From positions 1 through 22,277 of IMG/VR virus record IMGVR_UViG_3300011187_000066: a DNA stretch of 22,277 bases; one strand, given 5' to 3'. Below, piece after piece: positions 13,263 to 22,277 of the stretch. The position numbers and the translations under genes were made by a program. Source of the stretch: a virus. How positions within the stretch are numbered: position 1 is the stretch's first letter; every line of letters starts with the position of its first letter. The notes beneath the pieces are model-generated. The model searched no databases, was not told the DNA's origin, and worked only from the letters and a program-made list of their open reading frames with translations.

Positions 13263-13894
13263 ATCCCGCCGTACCCCGTCGTGAAGATGCGTGACGTGTT
13301 CGTGCGCCGGGCGATCTCTTGCGCGCGATCCACTTCCGCCCGGTAGGCGTTGTAGTGGAACCCGGCAAGATTCGGGTCGTACCATTCCGTGTTCCGGATC
13401 TCCATGAGCCGTGACAGCGTCCCGTGGATGATGCCATCGGCAAACTCATCCAGGATGCCGTCGGGGATGCCCGTGGCACCCCGGACCGGCTTGATCGCCG
13501 CCCGCCCGCTGATCGTGTACGCCCCTTTGGACGTGGGGGCCAGCGTGAACGTATCCTTGCTGTGGTCGGCCAGAAACAGGAACTCGGGCTTGTCCTGGAT
13601 AGACGCAAAATTCTCGCCGTAATGCTCCCGGAGCATCCGGTGGTTGGCCGTGGCCATCGGCTCCTTGTCGCGGTAAACCTCAAGCGGCGCGACAATACGG
13701 GTGTCCACCGGCAGATTGCTAATTGCGACACTGGTGTCGCCTTTGCCAATGGTCTCGCTGAACGTATGAATCCACGCCTGCGACTCGTGGAAGAATCGCT
13801 GGGCCTGCGAGCGGATCGCCTGGGCGATACTCGGCACCGGGCAGCTCATCACATGCGGCAGGATCTCTGGCATGAGGTCGCTGTATTCAGCCAT
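13259..13894 (-). CDS. Head-tail connector-like structural protein (211 aa)
   Basis: The N-terminal pattern 'YSDLMPEILPHVMSCPVPSIAQAIRSQAQRFFHESQAWIHTF' (Leu-Met-Pro...Leu-Pro...Cys-Pro, then a helix with Phe/His and Trp) is one that recurs in phage connector genes just after the head-tail adaptor. The middle is beta-rich ('TSVAISNLPVDTRIVAPLEVYRD', then 'FTLAPTSKGAYTISGRAAIKP'). The end is helical, with 'LEIRNTEWYDPNLAGFHYNAYRAEVDRAQ'-type residues; the stretch 'WYDP..AGFHY..YR.E...A' is common in this group. The start is the ATG at 13894, overlapping the adaptor stop as TGATG; a GTG one codon upstream is the alternative. Synteny suggests it belongs to the connector or tail hub. Confidence 0.62.
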   Translation of the reverse strand: MAEYSDLMPEILPHVMSCPVPSIAQAIRSQAQRFFHESQAWIHTFSETIGKGDTSVAISNLPVDTRIVAPLEVYRDKEPMATANHRMLREHYGENFASIQDKPEFLFLADHSKDTFTLAPTSKGAYTISGRAAIKPVRGATGIPDGILDEFADGIIHGTLSRLMEIRNTEWYDPNLAGFHYNAYRAEVDRAQEIARRTNTSRIFTTGYGGI

Positions 13895-14553
13895 CACTCA
13901 ATACCCTTTTGCTGGTTCTTGTTGGTCGTGTGCGGGTCCAGTGCTGCTTCAAACTGAAGTCTGGCCCCGAGCGCGCCGCGAAATCGGTTGTAGGCAGCAG
14001 CGGCACGCTGCTCATTCCCCGCGAACTTGGAGTGCTTGGAGTAGGCCCGATACAGCAGATAATCGACCAGCACCGGCACGTATACATCATCTGCCGGTAC
14101 CGTGTTGGTCAGGGCCGTCAGGTCAGTGAAGGGACGGGCTACCGTGATCGACAGGGCACCCGTGCCGTCGTTTGGCGGGTATACCTGAAACTCCAACGGA
14201 ACGGTCGCATCGTAGATGTAATGGTCGGCGTCCTTGGTTTCGCCCAAGGCCCGCCAGCCGGGTTCCGTGGCATCGAGGCGGTCGATGTCCACCAGTCGAC
14301 ACGGCTTTCCGGACACCGCGTTATGTGTCGCCCGGAGCAAATGTAGGGTGCCACTCGGCAGGGGCTGGATCACCCCCGGCGCGAGTGACTGGTTGATCCG
14401 CAAACTGTTGGCGGTGGGTTTGAGAACGACCAGCTCTTTCAAGCCATCGTTGAGCCACGCAATCAGCTCGGGGTCCGTCCAGCGTACCCCGGCATCATCC
14501 TGGATCAGGTAGCGTGCACGCTCAACAATGTACGATACTTGGCGCGTTCCCAT
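13894..14553 (-). CDS. Head-tail adaptor, DUF6682-type (219 aa)
   Basis: The protein resembles the DUF6682 phage adaptor family, which docks below the portal and joins it to the tail nozzle. Visible features are an N-terminal helix with 'ARYLIQDDAGVRWTDPELIAWLNDGLKELVVLKP', a 'QPLPSGTLHLLRATHN' strand, 'DHYIYDATVPLEFQVYPPNDG' and a C-terminal helical part 'VPVLVDYLLYRAYSKHSKFAGNEQRAAAAYNRF'. 'DDaG.rW....LI.WLNDG..E' is the most diagnostic part. The gene starts 6 nt after the preceding stop (TAAGGGAGTATG), so the GGAG is only 1 nt from the ATG. This unusually tight spacing suggests initiation by ribosomes finishing the upstream gene. No other in-frame start is available, because the TAA lies in frame. 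Confidence 0.75.
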   Translation of the reverse strand: MGTRQVSYIVERARYLIQDDAGVRWTDPELIAWLNDGLKELVVLKPTANSLRINQSLAPGVIQPLPSGTLHLLRATHNAVSGKPCRLVDIDRLDATEPGWRALGETKDADHYIYDATVPLEFQVYPPNDGTGALSITVARPFTDLTALTNTVPADDVYVPVLVDYLLYRAYSKHSKFAGNEQRAAAAYNRFRGALGARLQFEAALDPHTTNKNQQKGIE

Positions 14554-14903: not shown

Positions 14904-16067
14904 TTAGATCGCGGTGTCGATGCACATCACACCGAAGTCCTGGTCATCACCATTGACCGGCGAGTAGAAGTCCGGCTTCAGGAAGCCGAAGATCTTGCCG
15001 ATGCTGATGCCGCCCTTGTTCTTGTAATCGAACCACTCCTCGTTCCATTCCGGAGTGCCCAGATCACAGAAGCCGAGCGCCTGTGCGCCGCACATCAGGA
15101 TGCGCTGGCCGTCGACACCGCCTGCCGTGGCAGCGTGGTCGCCCCACTTATTACCCAGGACACCGTTGTCGCCTATGGCCGTCAGCGCATCAGCACCCAG
15201 CGTGTTCGGCACGTAGCGGAACTCGTGGATGATGAGGCCGTCAGCCATGACCGATGTGGTGCCGCTGAACACCGGGTTGGATGCACCGCGCTGGTACGCA
15301 TGGCGCACGTTGGCGATATAGTCCGGGTCCAGTTTCAGCTTTGCCATGCCGGTGGGGTTCATGAAGACGTGGTACACCTCTTCACCGCCCTTGCCGCGCA
15401 GGCCCTTGATGTACTGCTCCTTGGCTTGCGCCTTGGCCAGAACCAGCATCTCATAGCTGGGGGTGTCATCAGGGGTAATGGCGGTGATATCACCGGTTTG
15501 CAGTCGGCCTGCGTTGGAGTCCCAACGGATATGGCGCTGCGAGGACGGAGCCGCGACATCACTGGCAAAGGCCAGGTCAGACAGGTTCCGACCCGTCGCG
15601 CGTACCGGGCGCAGTGCGCCGTTAGGCTTGACCGTGTAGGGCATGCCAGACAGCGTCAGGAAGCCCATCTGGTCGAGGCGGTCGCCCAGCCAGTAACCCA
15701 GGACATCCTTGGACGTTTTGCGGAAGTTCACGATGGACTTCTGCTCGCCCATCTTACCGCCGGAACGGTTGGCGTGACGCAGCATGTCGATCGTGATCAC
15801 ACGGTCGTATGCCTTGATCGCCTCTTCGTTCCCTTCCAGGTCGTTATCCCCGGTAACACCGTCTTCTTCAAGATCGGGTACCAGCGTAATAACGGCTTGG
15901 TCGCCGCGTTCCGTGCGCGTCAGTTCAGTGATGCGCTGGATCATGGAGTTCGCATCGGAACCCATGAAATTGAAAAGGAAAGAGTTGTTGCGGGCAACCT
16001 TCCAGACGTCGCGTGACCAGACCTTCTTGCGCTCAGTGGTCAGAGCCGTGAAATTTGTATCAGCCAT
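14904..16067 (-). CDS. Major capsid protein, N4 gp56 family (387 aa)
   Basis: The protein matches the N4 gp56 / DUF4043 major capsid group in length (N4 gp56 is about 400 aa) and in landmarks. These are 'FTALTTERKKVWSRDVWKVARNNSFLFNFMG' at the N-terminus, 'KAYDRVITIDMLRHANRSGGKMGEQ', 'DVLGYWLGDRLDQMGFLTLSG' and 'YHVFMNPTGMAKLKLDPDY'. Near the C-terminus are 'LGADALTAIGDN...RILMCGAQALGF' and 'DLGTPEWNEEWFDYKNKGGISIGKIFG'. It forms the icosahedral shell. The ATG has GAGGT 8 nt upstream. It is insulated from the scaffold gene by a terminator and has its own promoter-like dyad and a leader of about 160 nt, and it is followed by a hairpin. Together these fit very high, separately set expression. 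Confidence 0.9.
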   Translation of the reverse strand: MADTNFTALTTERKKVWSRDVWKVARNNSFLFNFMGSDANSMIQRITELTRTERGDQAVITLVPDLEEDGVTGDNDLEGNEEAIKAYDRVITIDMLRHANRSGGKMGEQKSIVNFRKTSKDVLGYWLGDRLDQMGFLTLSGMPYTVKPNGALRPVRATGRNLSDLAFASDVAAPSSQRHIRWDSNAGRLQTGDITAITPDDTPSYEMLVLAKAQAKEQYIKGLRGKGGEEVYHVFMNPTGMAKLKLDPDYIANVRHAYQRGASNPVFSGTTSVMADGLIIHEFRYVPNTLGADALTAIGDNGVLGNKWGDHAATAGGVDGQRILMCGAQALGFCDLGTPEWNEEWFDYKNKGGISIGKIFGFLKPDFYSPVNGDDQDFGVMCIDTAI

Positions 16068-17478: not shown

Positions 17479-19617
17479 TTATGACCGGGAAGAGTTTCCG
17501 GTGGGTTGCGGGGTGAGTGCTGACTGGAGCAGTTGCTGCGTCTGCTTGCCCTTGTGCTCCAGCATGATTTTTTGCATGGCGTCGTAGCCGGATTGCAGGG
17601 CCAGGCGTGAGCGGACCTCGAAACCTTCGCGCTCGATCTGGGCCTTCATTTCCAGCTCGGACAGCTTCAGTTCCAGCTCCTGCGGAATCGCACCGGTCTC
17701 CATGAGGACCTTCTGCGCTTCTGCGCGGAGCTTCATGACCTCGCCTTCCAGCTTGGCCACGTTGAGCTGCATGGTCTGGAGTTCCATCTGCTGGATCATT
17801 GCCTGCATCTGCGCTTGCTCCGGTGTCACTTCGCCACGGCCCGTCATTTCACGGACTTCCGTTGCGAGTGCGTGCTTCTTCTCCAGGTTGGAGTATTCAA
17901 TGATCCGGTCGTCCGGAATCATGACCCCTACGCTGCGCAGCTCCAGGGCTTCCGCGAACTGGGTGTCGTTGAACGTGTCACGGCTCGGCTGGCTCGATAT
18001 CACGACATCGAACGTGCCGGTGGTGATGTCATTGAGGACTTCTCCCTCGGGCGTCGGCATGTTCAATTGCAGCTGCTCAAAGCCCGGCTCGCCTTCCTTG
18101 GGCAGGTCACGCGTGATATTGATCACCCGGGGTTCGGTATAGAACGCCTGCACCAGATTCAGCAGCCGCTTGGCCACCATGCGCCGGGTGCGTGCCAGAT
18201 TGTCCAGGGGGACCTGGAGCTGAACCTGGCCCCGTTTCTCCTTGGAGTCGATCGCGACCCCAGAGACCTCGGACCCCGTGAGACCCAGCATGCCCTCGTT
18301 GACCCCGGAGATTTCCCGAATGTTATTGGCCGCTTTCATGCCGATCCGGTCAAGACCGGTCGGGATTGTGTTCGACTGGATCTTCTCAGGTGGCTGCGCG
18401 TTCGGCTTCACCGACAGAACGACCCCGGTCTCGGAGCCGCGTGCCGCCAGCTCTTCGTCGGTCATGTTGTCCAGCGACCCCTTGTACATGATCCAGCCGG
18501 AATTGGCGGTGCTGTTGACCACGTGCAGTTCCTGGCTGGACAGCTTGTTCAACAGGTCCTGCGGATCCAGCAGATTGCTCACGACGCCCGTCGTCTTCCC
18601 CCGGCGGAAATAGGGGAAGTACGGTACGATCGTGAACGCCCGGTATGGCGACCAGGAATCGTGGAGCATGATCTTGTCCGCGCAGACGCGCCACCGGACC
18701 CGGCGCTCGGTCTTCTTGTGCAGGAACAGGTTGAACTGGCTGGCGAACCCGCGTCGCTTCTCCCGGTTCCAGTTCTCGGGCACGCGCTTCTGGTCACCCG
18801 TTTCCGGATCGACGAAGAAGTACACCGTGGAGTTCTTCCAGAACTGGCGCTCAAGCACGCGTACCGAGCGCACCTGTCGGTTGGCCGGGTCGTGGCTCGC
18901 CCAGGCTTCGATGTGCCGGTTGTCTTCATCGGAGAACGTGTTCTCGTACTTGAAGCTGTCCGGTCCCTGGGTCCGGTCGTGGGTCGCGACGTGGGCGACC
19001 TTGTCGCGCATGTCCTTGCCGTACTCGACCTCGATCTCATCGAGTGACCACCAGCGGGTCTTGGTCACTTCCTGCCAGCTATCCGGGTCGTAGCTCTTCC
19101 CGTTCGGGTCCGGGATGATGTCCAGCGGATCCTCGACCGTGATTTCCGCGTGACCCATCAGGTTGTCGTCGAAGGCGATCCGGATGTCGAAGTAGCCCCG
19201 CTCCTGGATGATCCCGTCCGCGAAGACCTCAGACTCCAGCGAATCGTACTGCTGGTTGTCCATGATGGCCTGGGCCAGCTTGGTGAGCGCCGCCGCTTTC
19301 TCTTCCGTCCCGTCCTGGCCGGGCTTGTAGCGGATGTCCGCGCGCCGGGTAACCTGCTCCCCGAGAACCGTGTTGATGGTCGGGAGGATCTGGTTGATGG
19401 TCAGCGCCGGGCGGCCCTGCTTATCCAGCTTGGCTTTGTCTGCCGGGTCCCACTGATCACCACGGTAGTAGTTGTCGCACTTCTGCGCACGCTCCAGGTA
19501 CCCGTCATGCCCCAGGTCCTTTGCGCGGCGGTAGCGATCCCACTCCTCAAGGGCCGCCTGCTCATCCTTCTTTGCTGCAAGGTTGAGCTTCTCTACTTTA
19601 TTGGTAGCGGCTTCCAT
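17479..19617 (-). CDS. Portal protein, P22-type family (712 aa)
   Basis: This is the dodecameric portal at the DNA-packaging vertex; it binds the terminase during packaging and the adaptor afterwards. Length (712 aa; P22 portal is 725) and sequence fit the P22-like portal family. Landmarks include 'YYRGDQWDPADKAKLDKQGRPALTINQILPTINTVLGEQ', 'FADGIIQERGYFDIRI', 'DPLDIIPDPNGKSYDPDS', 'PYFPYFRRGKTTGVVSNLLDPQDLLNKLSSQELHVVNSTANSGW' and 'GVNEGMLGLTGSEVSGVAI'. Residues about 594-690 are a Gln/Met/Leu/Glu-rich helical stretch that would form the C-terminal barrel. The ATG has GGAG 8 nt upstream. It lies downstream of terminase and the 90-residue gene, in the usual order before the scaffold. Confidence 0.9.
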   Translation of the reverse strand: MEAATNKVEKLNLAAKKDEQAALEEWDRYRRAKDLGHDGYLERAQKCDNYYRGDQWDPADKAKLDKQGRPALTINQILPTINTVLGEQVTRRADIRYKPGQDGTEEKAAALTKLAQAIMDNQQYDSLESEVFADGIIQERGYFDIRIAFDDNLMGHAEITVEDPLDIIPDPNGKSYDPDSWQEVTKTRWWSLDEIEVEYGKDMRDKVAHVATHDRTQGPDSFKYENTFSDEDNRHIEAWASHDPANRQVRSVRVLERQFWKNSTVYFFVDPETGDQKRVPENWNREKRRGFASQFNLFLHKKTERRVRWRVCADKIMLHDSWSPYRAFTIVPYFPYFRRGKTTGVVSNLLDPQDLLNKLSSQELHVVNSTANSGWIMYKGSLDNMTDEELAARGSETGVVLSVKPNAQPPEKIQSNTIPTGLDRIGMKAANNIREISGVNEGMLGLTGSEVSGVAIDSKEKRGQVQLQVPLDNLARTRRMVAKRLLNLVQAFYTEPRVINITRDLPKEGEPGFEQLQLNMPTPEGEVLNDITTGTFDVVISSQPSRDTFNDTQFAEALELRSVGVMIPDDRIIEYSNLEKKHALATEVREMTGRGEVTPEQAQMQAMIQQMELQTMQLNVAKLEGEVMKLRAEAQKVLMETGAIPQELELKLSELEMKAQIEREGFEVRSRLALQSGYDAMQKIMLEHKGKQTQQLLQSALTPQPTGNSSRS

Positions 19618-19646
19618 GGTGACTTCTCCAGGTCAGGACGGCCCAA

Positions 19647-19919
19647 TCAGGCTGCGTCGTCTGTTTCGATGTGTTGGTCGGCTGTCTGTTCGCGGTACTG
19701 GGCTTGCGCTTTTTTCTCGGCCTCCTGACGCGCCACGAAGGCTGCGTGATTCGTCGTGGCCGCGAGGACGATGCCGAGCAGGTCATTGGGGTTCTGGGCG
19801 ATGAGCTGCCCGTCTTCGGTGTGGACAATAAACCCATTGATCCCAGCCTCCACGGTGACGTTCTCCCCCGATTTGAAGTACGGAGGGTTCTGCTGTTCTA
19901 TTGCTGTTTGTGCGGTCAT
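19647..19919 (-). CDS. Small unknown protein between terminase and portal (90 aa)
   Basis: I do not recognise a named family. Residues 13-55 look like a small beta-strand domain ('PYFKSGENVTVEAGINGFIVHTEDGQLIAQNPNDLLGIV'). The rest is an Ala/Gln/Glu-rich helix (HAAFVARQEAEKKAQAQYREQ) with an acidic tail. It starts 12 nt after the terminase stop, with GGAG 7 nt upstream of the ATG, and ends 29 nt before the portal start, so it belongs to the packaging operon. A packaging accessory or minor virion role is possible. No zinc, nuclease or DNA-binding motif is visible. Confidence 0.65.
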   Translation of the reverse strand: MTAQTAIEQQNPPYFKSGENVTVEAGINGFIVHTEDGQLIAQNPNDLLGIVLAATTNHAAFVARQEAEKKAQAQYREQTADQHIETDDAA

Positions 19920-19931
19920 CGATCTACTCCT

Positions 19932-21587
19932 TTATGCGCTCATGGCGCTTTTGCGATTGACGTCTCCCCCTCGGGAGAAACGGTGTAGCTTGTCTTTCCA
20001 GCTCGGCTTCTTCTCCAGCCGGATGGTTGCCGGGTTCATCAGCATCAGCATCTGGCCGATCCAGGCGAAGAAGTCCACCTGGTCGTCGTTTACGCCTGTG
20101 GGGAAGCGCAGCAACTCGCTCACGAAGGACTCGGTCCACGGGGCGTTGAACGGGATGTGGATCTTTCCGGCTTCCCACATGCCCTGCACGGCGCGTGCAC
20201 GGGCGACCTTGTCCTGCTTCCCGGGCTTGAGTTCGGTGTAGGAGAAGTCCCATATCCGTTTTTCTTCCTTCATTTCATGCAGAAAGGGGCCGATCGACAT
20301 TTCGATCATGCCTTTCTCGATACCCGTCAGGTCCGGTCGCCACTGGTCGAACATCCCCAGGATCTGACGGCACAGTTCCAGTGACCCCCAGTGACCGCGC
20401 CTGACATGGCGGACCCACAGGTCATTTTTCTGGTCGATGCTCACGATGCCGCCCACAGAGTAGTCGTTCTCCTGCTTTTCGCCAATGGCCAGGTCCCACG
20501 CGCTGTAGTGGACCAGTTCCCTGTCGTTGGGCAGCGCGCCGGGGTCGTTGTAGTCGTACCACTGGATGTGCTCGCGCGTGAAAAAGGCCCCTTCATCCGG
20601 CACCGGATTCTGCTGATACAGGGCTGCCCAGTCGCGCGGGCCAATCGTGTTCTTGATCCGGCTCAGCGCGTCCAGGTCGTACCGGTCGGGGTGCAACGCC
20701 TCACCTTTGCCCCGGTACGTCTCGTCATCAGTCGCTTCAGCGGGGTAATTGACGATCTCCCACTGGTCTGCCCCCTCCTTCATGGCCTCGGTGAGCCTGC
20801 CAGCGAGGTCATCATCGTGCCATCGCGTGAGGATGACGATGACCCCGCCACCGGGGGCGAGTCGGGTGTACGCGGTCGAGGTGTACCAGTCCCAGGTGTT
20901 CTGGCGACTGGCTTCGCTCTCGGCGTCCTCCCGGTTTTTAACCGGGTCATCAATAATCAGGACGTGGGCACCTTTACCGGTGATGGCACCGCCGACACCG
21001 GCTGCCATGTAGCCCCCACCTTCTGTCGTCATCCACGCTTCCGCGCCCTGGGAATCCGGGTGCAGGCGCGTCTCAAACAGCGCCTGGTACGCCGGGTCGC
21101 GGATAATCTCCCGGTTGATCCGGGAGAAGCTGACCGACAGCGAGCCAGAGTACGAGCAGGCCATGACCTCGTGGTTCGGGTAGCGCCCCAGATGCCACGG
21201 CGGCAGGCCCTTGGACGTGAGCTGGCTCTTGCCGTGGCGCGGCGGCATGGTCAGCAGCAGACGTGGACTCAGCCGGTTGGCCACGTCGTCGCTGAACTTC
21301 TCCAACCGGCGACAGATGTCCTTGTGCACCCAGCCCGGGATGTAGTCCGGGTTGAAGCGCATCACGAACGGCAGGAAATTGTCCCGGCACAGCCGCCGCC
21401 GCGCCGCCTCGCGCCGGGCGTACTCCGCCGGGTTGTCAGCCAGTGCCTGGCGCTCCTTCTCCTCGATCTCGCGCAGACGCATACCGGCCAGCTTGCGCTC
21501 GGCCAGGTCGCGCTCGATCTCGACCTGGATCTCGGAATCGGAGTTCCGGCGATCCAGCTCTTCTTTGGAGAAGGTCTTCGCGGTCAT
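19932..21587 (-). CDS. Terminase large subunit, ATPase-nuclease (551 aa)
   Basis: This motor pumps DNA through the portal and cuts the concatemer. The ATPase domain has a Walker A-like 'MPPRHGKS' (114-121), a Walker B 'HVLIIDDP' (208-215, D213/D214) and a motif III-like 'VILTRWHDDD' (251-260). The RNase H-like nuclease shows 'YSAWDLAIGE' (D365), 'LTGIEKG' (E424) and 'VNDDQVDFFAW' (D501, D502, D505). The first 70 residues are a charged helix (KEELDRRNSDSEIQVEIERDLAERK). The true start is the ATG at 21587, overlapping the previous stop as TGATG. The frame is open 80 codons further upstream, but that part lies inside the Tad2-like gene. No small subunit gene is recognised in the window; it may lie to the right. 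Confidence 0.93.
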   Translation of the reverse strand: MTAKTFSKEELDRRNSDSEIQVEIERDLAERKLAGMRLREIEEKERQALADNPAEYARREAARRRLCRDNFLPFVMRFNPDYIPGWVHKDICRRLEKFSDDVANRLSPRLLLTMPPRHGKSQLTSKGLPPWHLGRYPNHEVMACSYSGSLSVSFSRINREIIRDPAYQALFETRLHPDSQGAEAWMTTEGGGYMAAGVGGAITGKGAHVLIIDDPVKNREDAESEASRQNTWDWYTSTAYTRLAPGGGVIVILTRWHDDDLAGRLTEAMKEGADQWEIVNYPAEATDDETYRGKGEALHPDRYDLDALSRIKNTIGPRDWAALYQQNPVPDEGAFFTREHIQWYDYNDPGALPNDRELVHYSAWDLAIGEKQENDYSVGGIVSIDQKNDLWVRHVRRGHWGSLELCRQILGMFDQWRPDLTGIEKGMIEMSIGPFLHEMKEEKRIWDFSYTELKPGKQDKVARARAVQGMWEAGKIHIPFNAPWTESFVSELLRFPTGVNDDQVDFFAWIGQMLMLMNPATIRLEKKPSWKDKLHRFSRGGDVNRKSAMSA

Positions 21588-22093
21588 CAGCCGACGAGCA
21601 CCCAGTCTTCTGCGAGCATGTCGGTCTGCGAGCACAGCCACGGCACGATCTGCCCGTCTGCCGTGCGCATGTCGATGTGTGCGTGGTAATTGATCTCGGT
21701 GCCTTCGGGGTAGATACCCGTCAACGGCGGGCGGTTCACCTTGAAGGTGCTGCCCGGCACCAGGAAGAGGAACATCCCCTTGCCGTTCCAGCCGACCCGC
21801 GCGACACGCCCGCCCCGCTTGATGCACTCCAGCGCGTGGCCGAAGTCCATACCCTCTTCGGTGGGCTGGTACGCTTCATGGAACACGTCGCGGGGCGACC
21901 AGCTGATGTAGCCGTCGTGATCGGGGTGGTTGCTCCCGCCGCCGTTGATATACTCGACCAGGAAGCCCTCATCCGCCCCGTTCTCGTTGGCCCCGTTCTC
22001 GTCGGCGGGTAGCTCCCAGCCACGGTAGTCGTTATATTCCTGCCGGTTCATTGGCCGGGCCAGAATGGCCTTGGTTCCCATGTACGTCTTCAT
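21587..22093 (-). CDS. Two-domain protein with C-terminal DUF2829/Tad2-like domain (168 aa)
   Basis: Residues about 81-168 carry the DUF2829 signature: 'MDFGHALECIKRGGRVARVGWNGKGMFLFLVPGS', then 'INYHAHIDMRTADGQIVPWLCSQTDMLAEDWVLV'. DUF2829 proteins include Tad2, which binds the gcADPR signal of the Thoeris defense system and blocks it. Residues 1-80 form a separate part (MGTKAILARPMNRQEYNDYRGW...GYISWSPRDVFHEAYQPT) that I recall from other phage proteins, alone or joined to DUF2829. The link is a short ENGAN/ENGAD repeat region near 32-43. The start is the ATG at 22093 (GGAG 8 nt upstream), overlapping the previous stop as ATGA. The terminase start follows by TGATG, so all three are probably translationally coupled. 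The anti-defense role is inferred from the family. Confidence 0.8.
   Translation of the reverse strand: MKTYMGTKAILARPMNRQEYNDYRGWELPADENGANENGADEGFLVEYINGGGSNHPDHDGYISWSPRDVFHEAYQPTEEGMDFGHALECIKRGGRVARVGWNGKGMFLFLVPGSTFKVNRPPLTGIYPEGTEINYHAHIDMRTADGQIVPWLCSQTDMLAEDWVLVG
21976..22005. repeat. 15-bp tandem duplication in the Tad2-like gene
   Basis: GCCCCGTTCTCGTTG at 21976-21990 is followed by the same 15 bp with one change (T to C at position 14) at 21991-22005. It encodes the repeated five residues around ENGAN/ENGAD in the N-terminal part of the protein. It looks like a small in-frame expansion of a loop. Confidence 0.8.
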
Positions 22094-22260
22094 GGTTCCC
22101 GCTCCTTTTTTAGGGTTTTCCCCATCCGTTTGTCGCTCCAGAACTGCTCCCCGATGACGATGCCTGCCGTCATAAAGCCAAACAGCAGAACCATGCACAG
22201 GCCGAGGTAGAGTGCCCCGGCAACCATCAGCGCGTGTTCAAGGTAGTCAGGTAGCATCAT
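22090..22260 (-). CDS. Small membrane protein (56 aa), unknown function
   Basis: The protein has one long or two short hydrophobic segments at residues 10-36 (ALMVAGALYLGLCMVLLFGF and on) and a basic C-terminal tail (DKRMGKTLKKEREP) expected to stay in the cytoplasm. It could be a holin-type or superinfection-related membrane protein, but nothing settles this. I chose the ATG at 22260, which has GGAG 9 nt upstream. An in-frame ATG at 22275 would add five residues (MEINT), but its upstream region lies outside the window and the GGAG would fall inside the gene. The stop overlaps the Tad2-like start as ATGA. Confidence 0.62.
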   Translation of the reverse strand: MMLPDYLEHALMVAGALYLGLCMVLLFGFMTAGIVIGEQFWSDKRMGKTLKKEREP

Positions 22261-22277
22261 AGTATTAATCTCCATGC

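Follow-up and report, generated by a model that had tools for sequence, protein, structure and literature searches.

What would a Tad2-like anti-defense domain be doing at the head of a viral packaging cluster, and what is the domain in front of it, named X here? We examined these questions for one gene on a virus fragment of 22,277 bases, the whole of which is called the window. The genes at and around this locus were as follows.

22090..22275, minus strand: 61-aa protein with one hydrophobic stretch, overlapping the X-Tad2 start by ATGA (open reading frame)
21587..22093, minus strand: X-Tad2 two-domain protein (PHROG 872), 168 aa (open reading frame, Pfam, PHROG, alignment and AlphaFold2 model)
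19932..21588, minus strand: terminase large subunit (TerL), beginning MTAKTF, with a TGATG overlap at the X-Tad2 stop (Pfam and PHROG)
17479..19617, minus strand: portal protein (phrog_156, E 4e-113)
14904..16067, minus strand: major head protein (phrog_334, E 2e-79)
13894..14553, minus strand: SU10-type adaptor (PF24175, E 1.8e-26)

The 168-aa frame runs on the minus strand from an ATG at 22093 to a TGA that ends at 21587, and the gene heads a same-strand series for TerL, portal, a 380-residue protein, major head, SU10-type adaptor and virion proteins. The 380-residue protein, encoded between the portal and major head genes, had no family match. A sequence-only reading of the window had reported ATGA and TGATG overlaps at the two ends of this gene, and both were present in the frames 22275-22090 and 22093-21587 and at the TerL start. 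It had also placed the gene in what looked like a late packaging operon, which was confirmed by the matches to TerL, portal, major head, SU10-type adaptor and virion proteins; the cluster around X-Tad2 is a late cluster. The membrane character of the 61-aa upstream protein was judged by eye from its single hydrophobic stretch. A search for sigma-70-like promoters from 19500 to 22277 found 0 compared to 0.6 expected, a result that is uninformative on timing.

The protein divides into two halves.

21857..22093, minus strand: N-terminal X domain, residues 1-79 as modelled (about 1-78), delimited by its own model and its separate occurrence elsewhere
21590..21850, minus strand: Tad2-like domain, residues 82-168 (PF11195, PDB sequence matches and Foldseek matches to Tad2 structures)

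Residues 82-167 matched PF11195 (Tad2-like, the present-day form of DUF2829) at an E-value of 2.4e-25, with 89.3 bits compared to a cut-off of 25, so the DUF2829/Tad2 assignment originally made by eye for the C-terminal half held in a profile search. PF11195 was the sole Pfam family at E ≤ 1, PF13876 did not match the window protein, and neither did PADLOC or NCBIfam models. Comparison with PDB sequences by phmmer gave 7 distinct sequences at E ≤ 1, all of them Tad2 or AcrIIA7, with ModTad2 (9eib, 9e-20) at the top. We aligned 65 proteins, the window protein among them, using the 80 IMG/VR loci with 16 omitted (8 that were truncated, of odd length or without X at the start, and 8 duplicates), and the AlphaFold2 model of the whole protein based on this alignment had a mean pLDDT of 94.3. 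Foldseek returned 24 matches to the model at E ≤ 0.001, every one Tad2 or AcrIIA7, and the best was ModTad2 with His-ADPR (E 6e-9, TM 0.82 by target). Known Tad2 proteins (SPO1 gp34.65, ModTad2 and HgmTad2) therefore agree with residues 82-167 in their domain, in predicted fold and in the loops that are conserved. However, solved Tad2 chains have about 73-104 residues, whereas the window protein has 80 more residues in front and lies in a TerL-portal-capsid cluster. Tad2 is known as a homotetramer with two shared pockets; the model of the window protein covered the monomer.

The whole protein matched PHROG 872, a family without an assigned function, with residues 1-167 aligned to positions 13-171 of the 172-position profile (E 8.4e-58). 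A tblastn search of 50,697 phage records gave a match in 387, of which 89 had 80% or more of the query covered, and a relative was encoded in at least 594 pattern-matched IMG/VR stretches (594 of the 600 among the matches listed). The 65 aligned proteins had 19 invariant columns in common. These last two counts indicate that the observation exceeds chance. The fusion of a Tad2-like domain to an extra N-terminal domain in a packaging cluster thus stood as first described; the view that it is unusual did not, given PHROG 872 and hundreds of relatives. The two-domain layout is known; the surprise is the front domain, which lacks a Pfam or NCBIfam model and, judging from sequence, is shuffled among sponges. 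Coliphage N4 gp49 (L101, 2474-2956) has the same layout as the window protein, but its gene adjoins the virion RNA polymerase gene on the other strand. The sole Pfam match of N4 gp49 was Tad2-like, yet it is PF13876 that bears the name "N4 Gp49", which may mislead annotators. Enterobacteria phage IME10 (JF974339, JN600960 and NC_019501) has an X-Tad2 match over 99% of the query that is unannotated in all three records.

The X half of the window protein had no Pfam or NCBIfam match. Stand-alone X proteins were found in isolated phages, namely Aeromonas phage JELG-KS1 (69 aa) and Erwinia phage phiEaP8 (78 aa), and these also had no Pfam match. Modelled alone, X had a pLDDT of 87. Foldseek comparison of this model to the PDB gave 23 matches, none at E ≤ 0.001, and in a VIA search the best match was a Tudor domain with a Z score of 3.6, perhaps just a common arrangement. 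We also considered whether X is a second, diverged copy of Tad2, because each half, judged by eye, has a tryptophan together with a hairpin and a short helix; profile comparison gave probabilities of 0.15% and 0.24%, and the idea was rejected. One feature of X was unique to the window protein among the 65 aligned.

21975..22006, minus strand: 15-bp tandem duplication that yields ENGAN/ENGAD in a loop of X

None of the 64 relatives in the alignment has these five additional residues, and the duplication therefore looks like a recent slip.

The sequence-only reading had proposed a survey of whether the N-terminal domain occurs alone, and this survey, which found both stand-alone and otherwise-partnered copies, yielded our main result. 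The X profile identified 239 open frames with X in the sequences collected. Of these, 139 came from loci fetched via X and formed 84 groups at 90% identity; 76 frames from the pattern-matched IMG/VR loci and 24 annotated or other-locus frames were counted apart. Pfam assigned PF11195 (Tad2-like) to 64 of the 84 non-redundant proteins, PF13876 to 6, PF21825 (crAss001_48) to 6 and PF24729 (Acb2/Tad1 hairpin) to 2. No further Pfam family, whether structural or metabolic, was found in the 84 at E ≤ 0.001. With our own seed profiles, the 84 groups comprised Tad2 (63), PF13876-like plus Tad2 (1), crAss001_48 (7), PF13876-like (4), Tad1 (2, or 28 frames before grouping), an AWAWHCN domain (1) and 6 unrecognised groups, of which at least L232 and L208 appear incomplete. 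These shares are skewed to Tad2, since the survey started from an X-Tad2 protein and pattern scans return near relatives. The Tad1 tail of an X protein, searched alone, scored 25.9 bits, slightly below the Pfam cut-off of 27, and matched the solved Tad1 8kbb at E 5e-16 by phmmer. A further partner, reached via a Foldseek match of the X model, was the RyR domain in Yersinia phage TG1 (phrog_18865; 40.4 bits compared to a cut-off of 27.4). The RyR partner is one case outside the 84 groups, and the Tad1 partner is rare (2/84).

X was found to behave as a module. L111 and L127 share 91% identity in X but 21% in their tails (Tad2 and crAss001_48, respectively), and L209 and L212 share 93% in X with tails at 20%. 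Because X domains this close carry unrelated partners, X appears to be shuffled as a unit. When partner labels were placed on a tree of 105 X domains, 24 changes were required compared to a minimum of 9; the two pairs outweigh the tree as evidence, since the short X leaves few branches firmly supported. X can stand before or after its partner (PF13876 comes first in P0009), and there are three-domain proteins, such as L154 (X, PF13876, Tad2) and L050 (X, Tad2, crAss001_48). Tad2 halves can also stand alone: those of L065 and L078, which are 85% and 80% identical to that of the window protein, have no X in any frame within 360 bases upstream. The nearest Tad2 halves therefore occur without X, which makes X dispensable for keeping the Tad2 half.

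Seven types of partner were found. We know of no function for three of them, the crAss001_48, KYF...RKLLEAKD and AWAWHCN domains. The other four (Tad2, Tad1, PF13876 and RyR) have tested members, and in each of these families such members act on nucleotide immune signals. Tad1 and Tad2 are reported to sequester cyclic ADPR signals, and the Tad2 family to bind several ligands (PMC12043709); PF13876 is described as the family that includes the cGAMP sponge Acb4 (PMC11722364). Phage RyR-domain proteins (RyDEP) are reported to sequester or degrade cADPR, with 6 of 8 tested homologues binding signals and one tested phage member being a glycosidase while others are sponges (PMC13232231). X-Tad1 fusions such as L145 carry the same X ahead of an anti-Thoeris sponge as the window protein does, although the structure of Tad1 differs from that of Tad2 (PMC12043709). 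X-RyR of phage TG1 likewise has X before a RyDEP-family domain, the partner being RyR rather than Tad2. Individual PF13876, RyR or Tad proteins fused to X need not all be active.

We consider it fairly probable that the window protein is a counter-defence protein in which a Tad2-type sponge for ADPR signals is combined with an X domain that adds ligand binding or avidity, and that it is made with the head genes. In this mechanism, phages would repeatedly have joined X to nucleotide-signal sponges (Tad2, Tad1, PF13876/Acb4 and RyR). The partner set points X to immune-signal work, and we prefer to read it as a module that most likely gives its partner sponge a second ligand-binding or avidity function. 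Nucleotide immune-signal sponges have so far been found family by family, through phage genetics or lysate screens. An unnamed small domain fused, in separate proteins, to four sponge or signal-degrading families could be a pointer to more of the counter-defence toolkit. We found no description of X or of X fusions in the open-access literature searched, a gap that may be one of access. X can be tested directly with the stand-alone proteins of JELG-KS1 and phiEaP8, and N4 gp49 offers an X-Tad2 protein from a classic Escherichia coli phage.

X could instead be a passive module for oligomerisation, solubility or docking, its sponge partners being coincidental to small phage genes. We regard this as a serious possibility, if the lesser one. 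X is small, its SH3/Tudor-like resemblance is weak (Z at most 3.6), and folds of that type are frequently used for docking; against a passive role, none of the Pfam partners in the 84 proteins was structural or metabolic. Three of the 7 partner types, being without known function, leave room for a passive X, whereas the four families with tested activity all converge on nucleotide immune signals, and X also occurs by itself at 69-78 aa. Returning to X as a working part of the sponge, a bolder form of that reading seems to us possible, and is put forward tentatively: X itself would be a nucleotide-signal-binding domain, phages would shuffle X, Tad2, Tad1, Acb4 and RyR into multi-sponges (for example, X, PF13876 and Tad2 in L154), and crAss001_48 and KYF...RKLLEAKD would be further sponges.

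The candidate ligand of the Tad2 half was approached through its pocket, to which two segments may contribute.

21773..21793, minus strand: GWNGKGM loop, residues 101-107 with the start codon as residue 1 (alignment and DSSP of the model)
21602..21640, minus strand: W152..S155..D158....D163 W164 segment, second pocket element (65-protein alignment)

By DSSP of the AlphaFold2 model, the GWNGKGM loop lies between strands one and two of the Tad2 half. Residues 101-105 (G101, W102, N103, G104 and K105) are the same in all 65 aligned proteins, residue 106 is conserved in 62 and residue 107 in 64; W152, D158, D163 and W164 are likewise invariant (65/65). Two protomers contribute to the described gcADPR pockets, which lie in the loops linking strand 1 to strand 2, strand 3 to strand 4, and strand 4 to helix 3 (PMC12043709), and we infer that these published loops correspond to the conserved loops of the modelled window protein. 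A structural comparison with known Tad2 pockets, suggested at the outset, thus gave a matching fold and, if this mapping of loops is right, retained pocket residues. Binding of a dinucleotide (cGG) by Tad2 has been tied to a long insertion in the same source (PMC12043709). The aligned Tad2 span is 86-88 residues here, compared to 85-86 in ModTad2, 95 in SptTad2 and 102 in HgmTad2; the 10-16 additional residues present in SptTad2 and HgmTad2 are missing from the window Tad2 half. Since the domain is close to ModTad2 in length and has no such insertion, an ADPR-type ligand is the better guess. The Tad2 half would most likely sequester a TIR-made ADP-ribose-type signal (His-ADPR or cyclic ADPR) and not a cyclic dinucleotide.

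Drift of the Tad2-like half to another small molecule or to a role outside defence is unlikely in our estimate. The Tad2 family already has several ligands according to PMC12043709, and the window protein has WLCSQTD where many aligned relatives have a W.PS.ND loop; against these points stand pocket loops that are invariant in 65 of 65 proteins and a closest length match that is a His-ADPR binder.

The sequence-only reading had considered it a paradox that a protein of this type, expected to act early, is encoded among late genes, and had suggested carry-over in virions as one solution. Of the nine annotated phages that we examined first, 6 (phiAH14a, 44E38.1, Kapi1, Louie, AP1 and 1.205.O) in our judgement carry the gene within or next to same-strand genes for lysis, packaging or the head. 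In phage Bp4 and Klebsiella phi13.3 it lies elsewhere than in such a region, and MW202545 was counted neither way. Skulduggery and Bacteroides phage BS-TP2 are two further head-region cases. TerL was searched in the 50 longer records of the 80 IMG/VR loci and was detected in 28, and the gene was on the TerL strand in 21 of these 28. With distances measured to the profile match and not to the gene end, the gene was on the same strand and within 5 kb of TerL in 13 of 28 records (3.9 expected at random), within 3 kb in 7 (2.6 expected) and within 1 kb in 1 (1.3 expected). Placement in the late region is therefore enriched, whereas direct overlap with TerL is not general, since 13 of 28 genes were within 5 kb but 1 of 28 within 1 kb. 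The late-gene activator is rinA. In PMC12578639, Thoeris of Staphylococcus and Streptococcus was triggered by the major capsid protein, and deletion of rinA abolished triggering. The late position is not a paradox on this evidence, because some Thoeris systems sense capsid protein and a sponge made with the head genes would fit. The X-Tad2 protein would be translated along with terminase and head genes, so that the sponge would be present when the triggering capsid protein is made, which suggests a reason for a sponge gene within a head cluster. Activity of Acb4 is reported to be early in SPO1 (PMC11722364), and RyDEP is placed early to mid in infection (PMC13232231); both early and late sponges may therefore exist.

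A different reason for a late position would be that X is a capsid binder akin to the Dec protein of phages L and ST64T, serving as a head decoration that carries the sponge to the next cell or shields the capsid from sensors. We considered this because Dec of ST64T lies between the lysis genes and terS, the slot that X-Tad2 occupies in Kapi1, which gives the two genes comparable places in P22-like genomes, and because the records of Kc283 and JELG-KS1 label stand-alone X "Dec" or "decoration". A short motif likeness was visible by eye, and phrog_11049 weakly matched both Dec (E 0.012) and X proteins (E 2e-4 to 0.4). However, hhalign of X (161 rows) with Dec gave probabilities of 0.3% and 1.7% with a shallow Dec alignment, Dec (6e3c) was missing from the 23 matches that Foldseek gave for the X model and was not listed by VIA, and X genes are also found among replication genes, as is the stand-alone X of Kc283. 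With profile probabilities below 2% (again with a shallow Dec alignment) and a weak phrog_11049 link, a capsid-decoration origin of X was not supported, and we regard it as improbable. The X profile gave no match to this shallow Dec alignment, and we found no evidence here for virion carry-over.

That the Tad2-like half is an anti-CRISPR like AcrIIA7 and not a signal sponge is very improbable, even though AcrIIA7 belongs to the same Pfam family (PMC6739104), its entry 9kzr is related in sequence to the window protein by phmmer and three of the phage records listed by tblastn call relatives "anti-CRISPR", since one of the solved structures catalogued as AcrIIA7, 8kbk, has cyclic ADPR and cGG bound.

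Several smaller observations were made on the partners of X. The crAss001_48 domain (PF21825) accompanies X, Tad2 and PF13876 in P0006, P0007, L112, L127 and L155, and by this association may be another counter-defence domain. In Vibrio phages (P0010, P0011 and L089), X is fused to a domain ending RKLLEAKDCFVRA (phrog_1761/5120) with no Pfam or PDB match. From its motif we had presumed the C-terminal part of P0010 and P0011 to be Acb2; this was rejected, as P0011 had 0 phmmer matches in the PDB at E ≤ 1, there was no Pfam match for that part, and PHROG 1761/5120 has no assigned function. Vibrio phage 1.205.O (L089, 3761-4752) has Tad2 and X in adjacent genes, the X gene having a KYF...RKLLEAKD tail. 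Lastly, phrog_4435 matched the PF13876 region in one protein and the RyR region in another (the TG1 protein and P0007), which suggests from sequence matches that PF13876-RyR fusions also exist.
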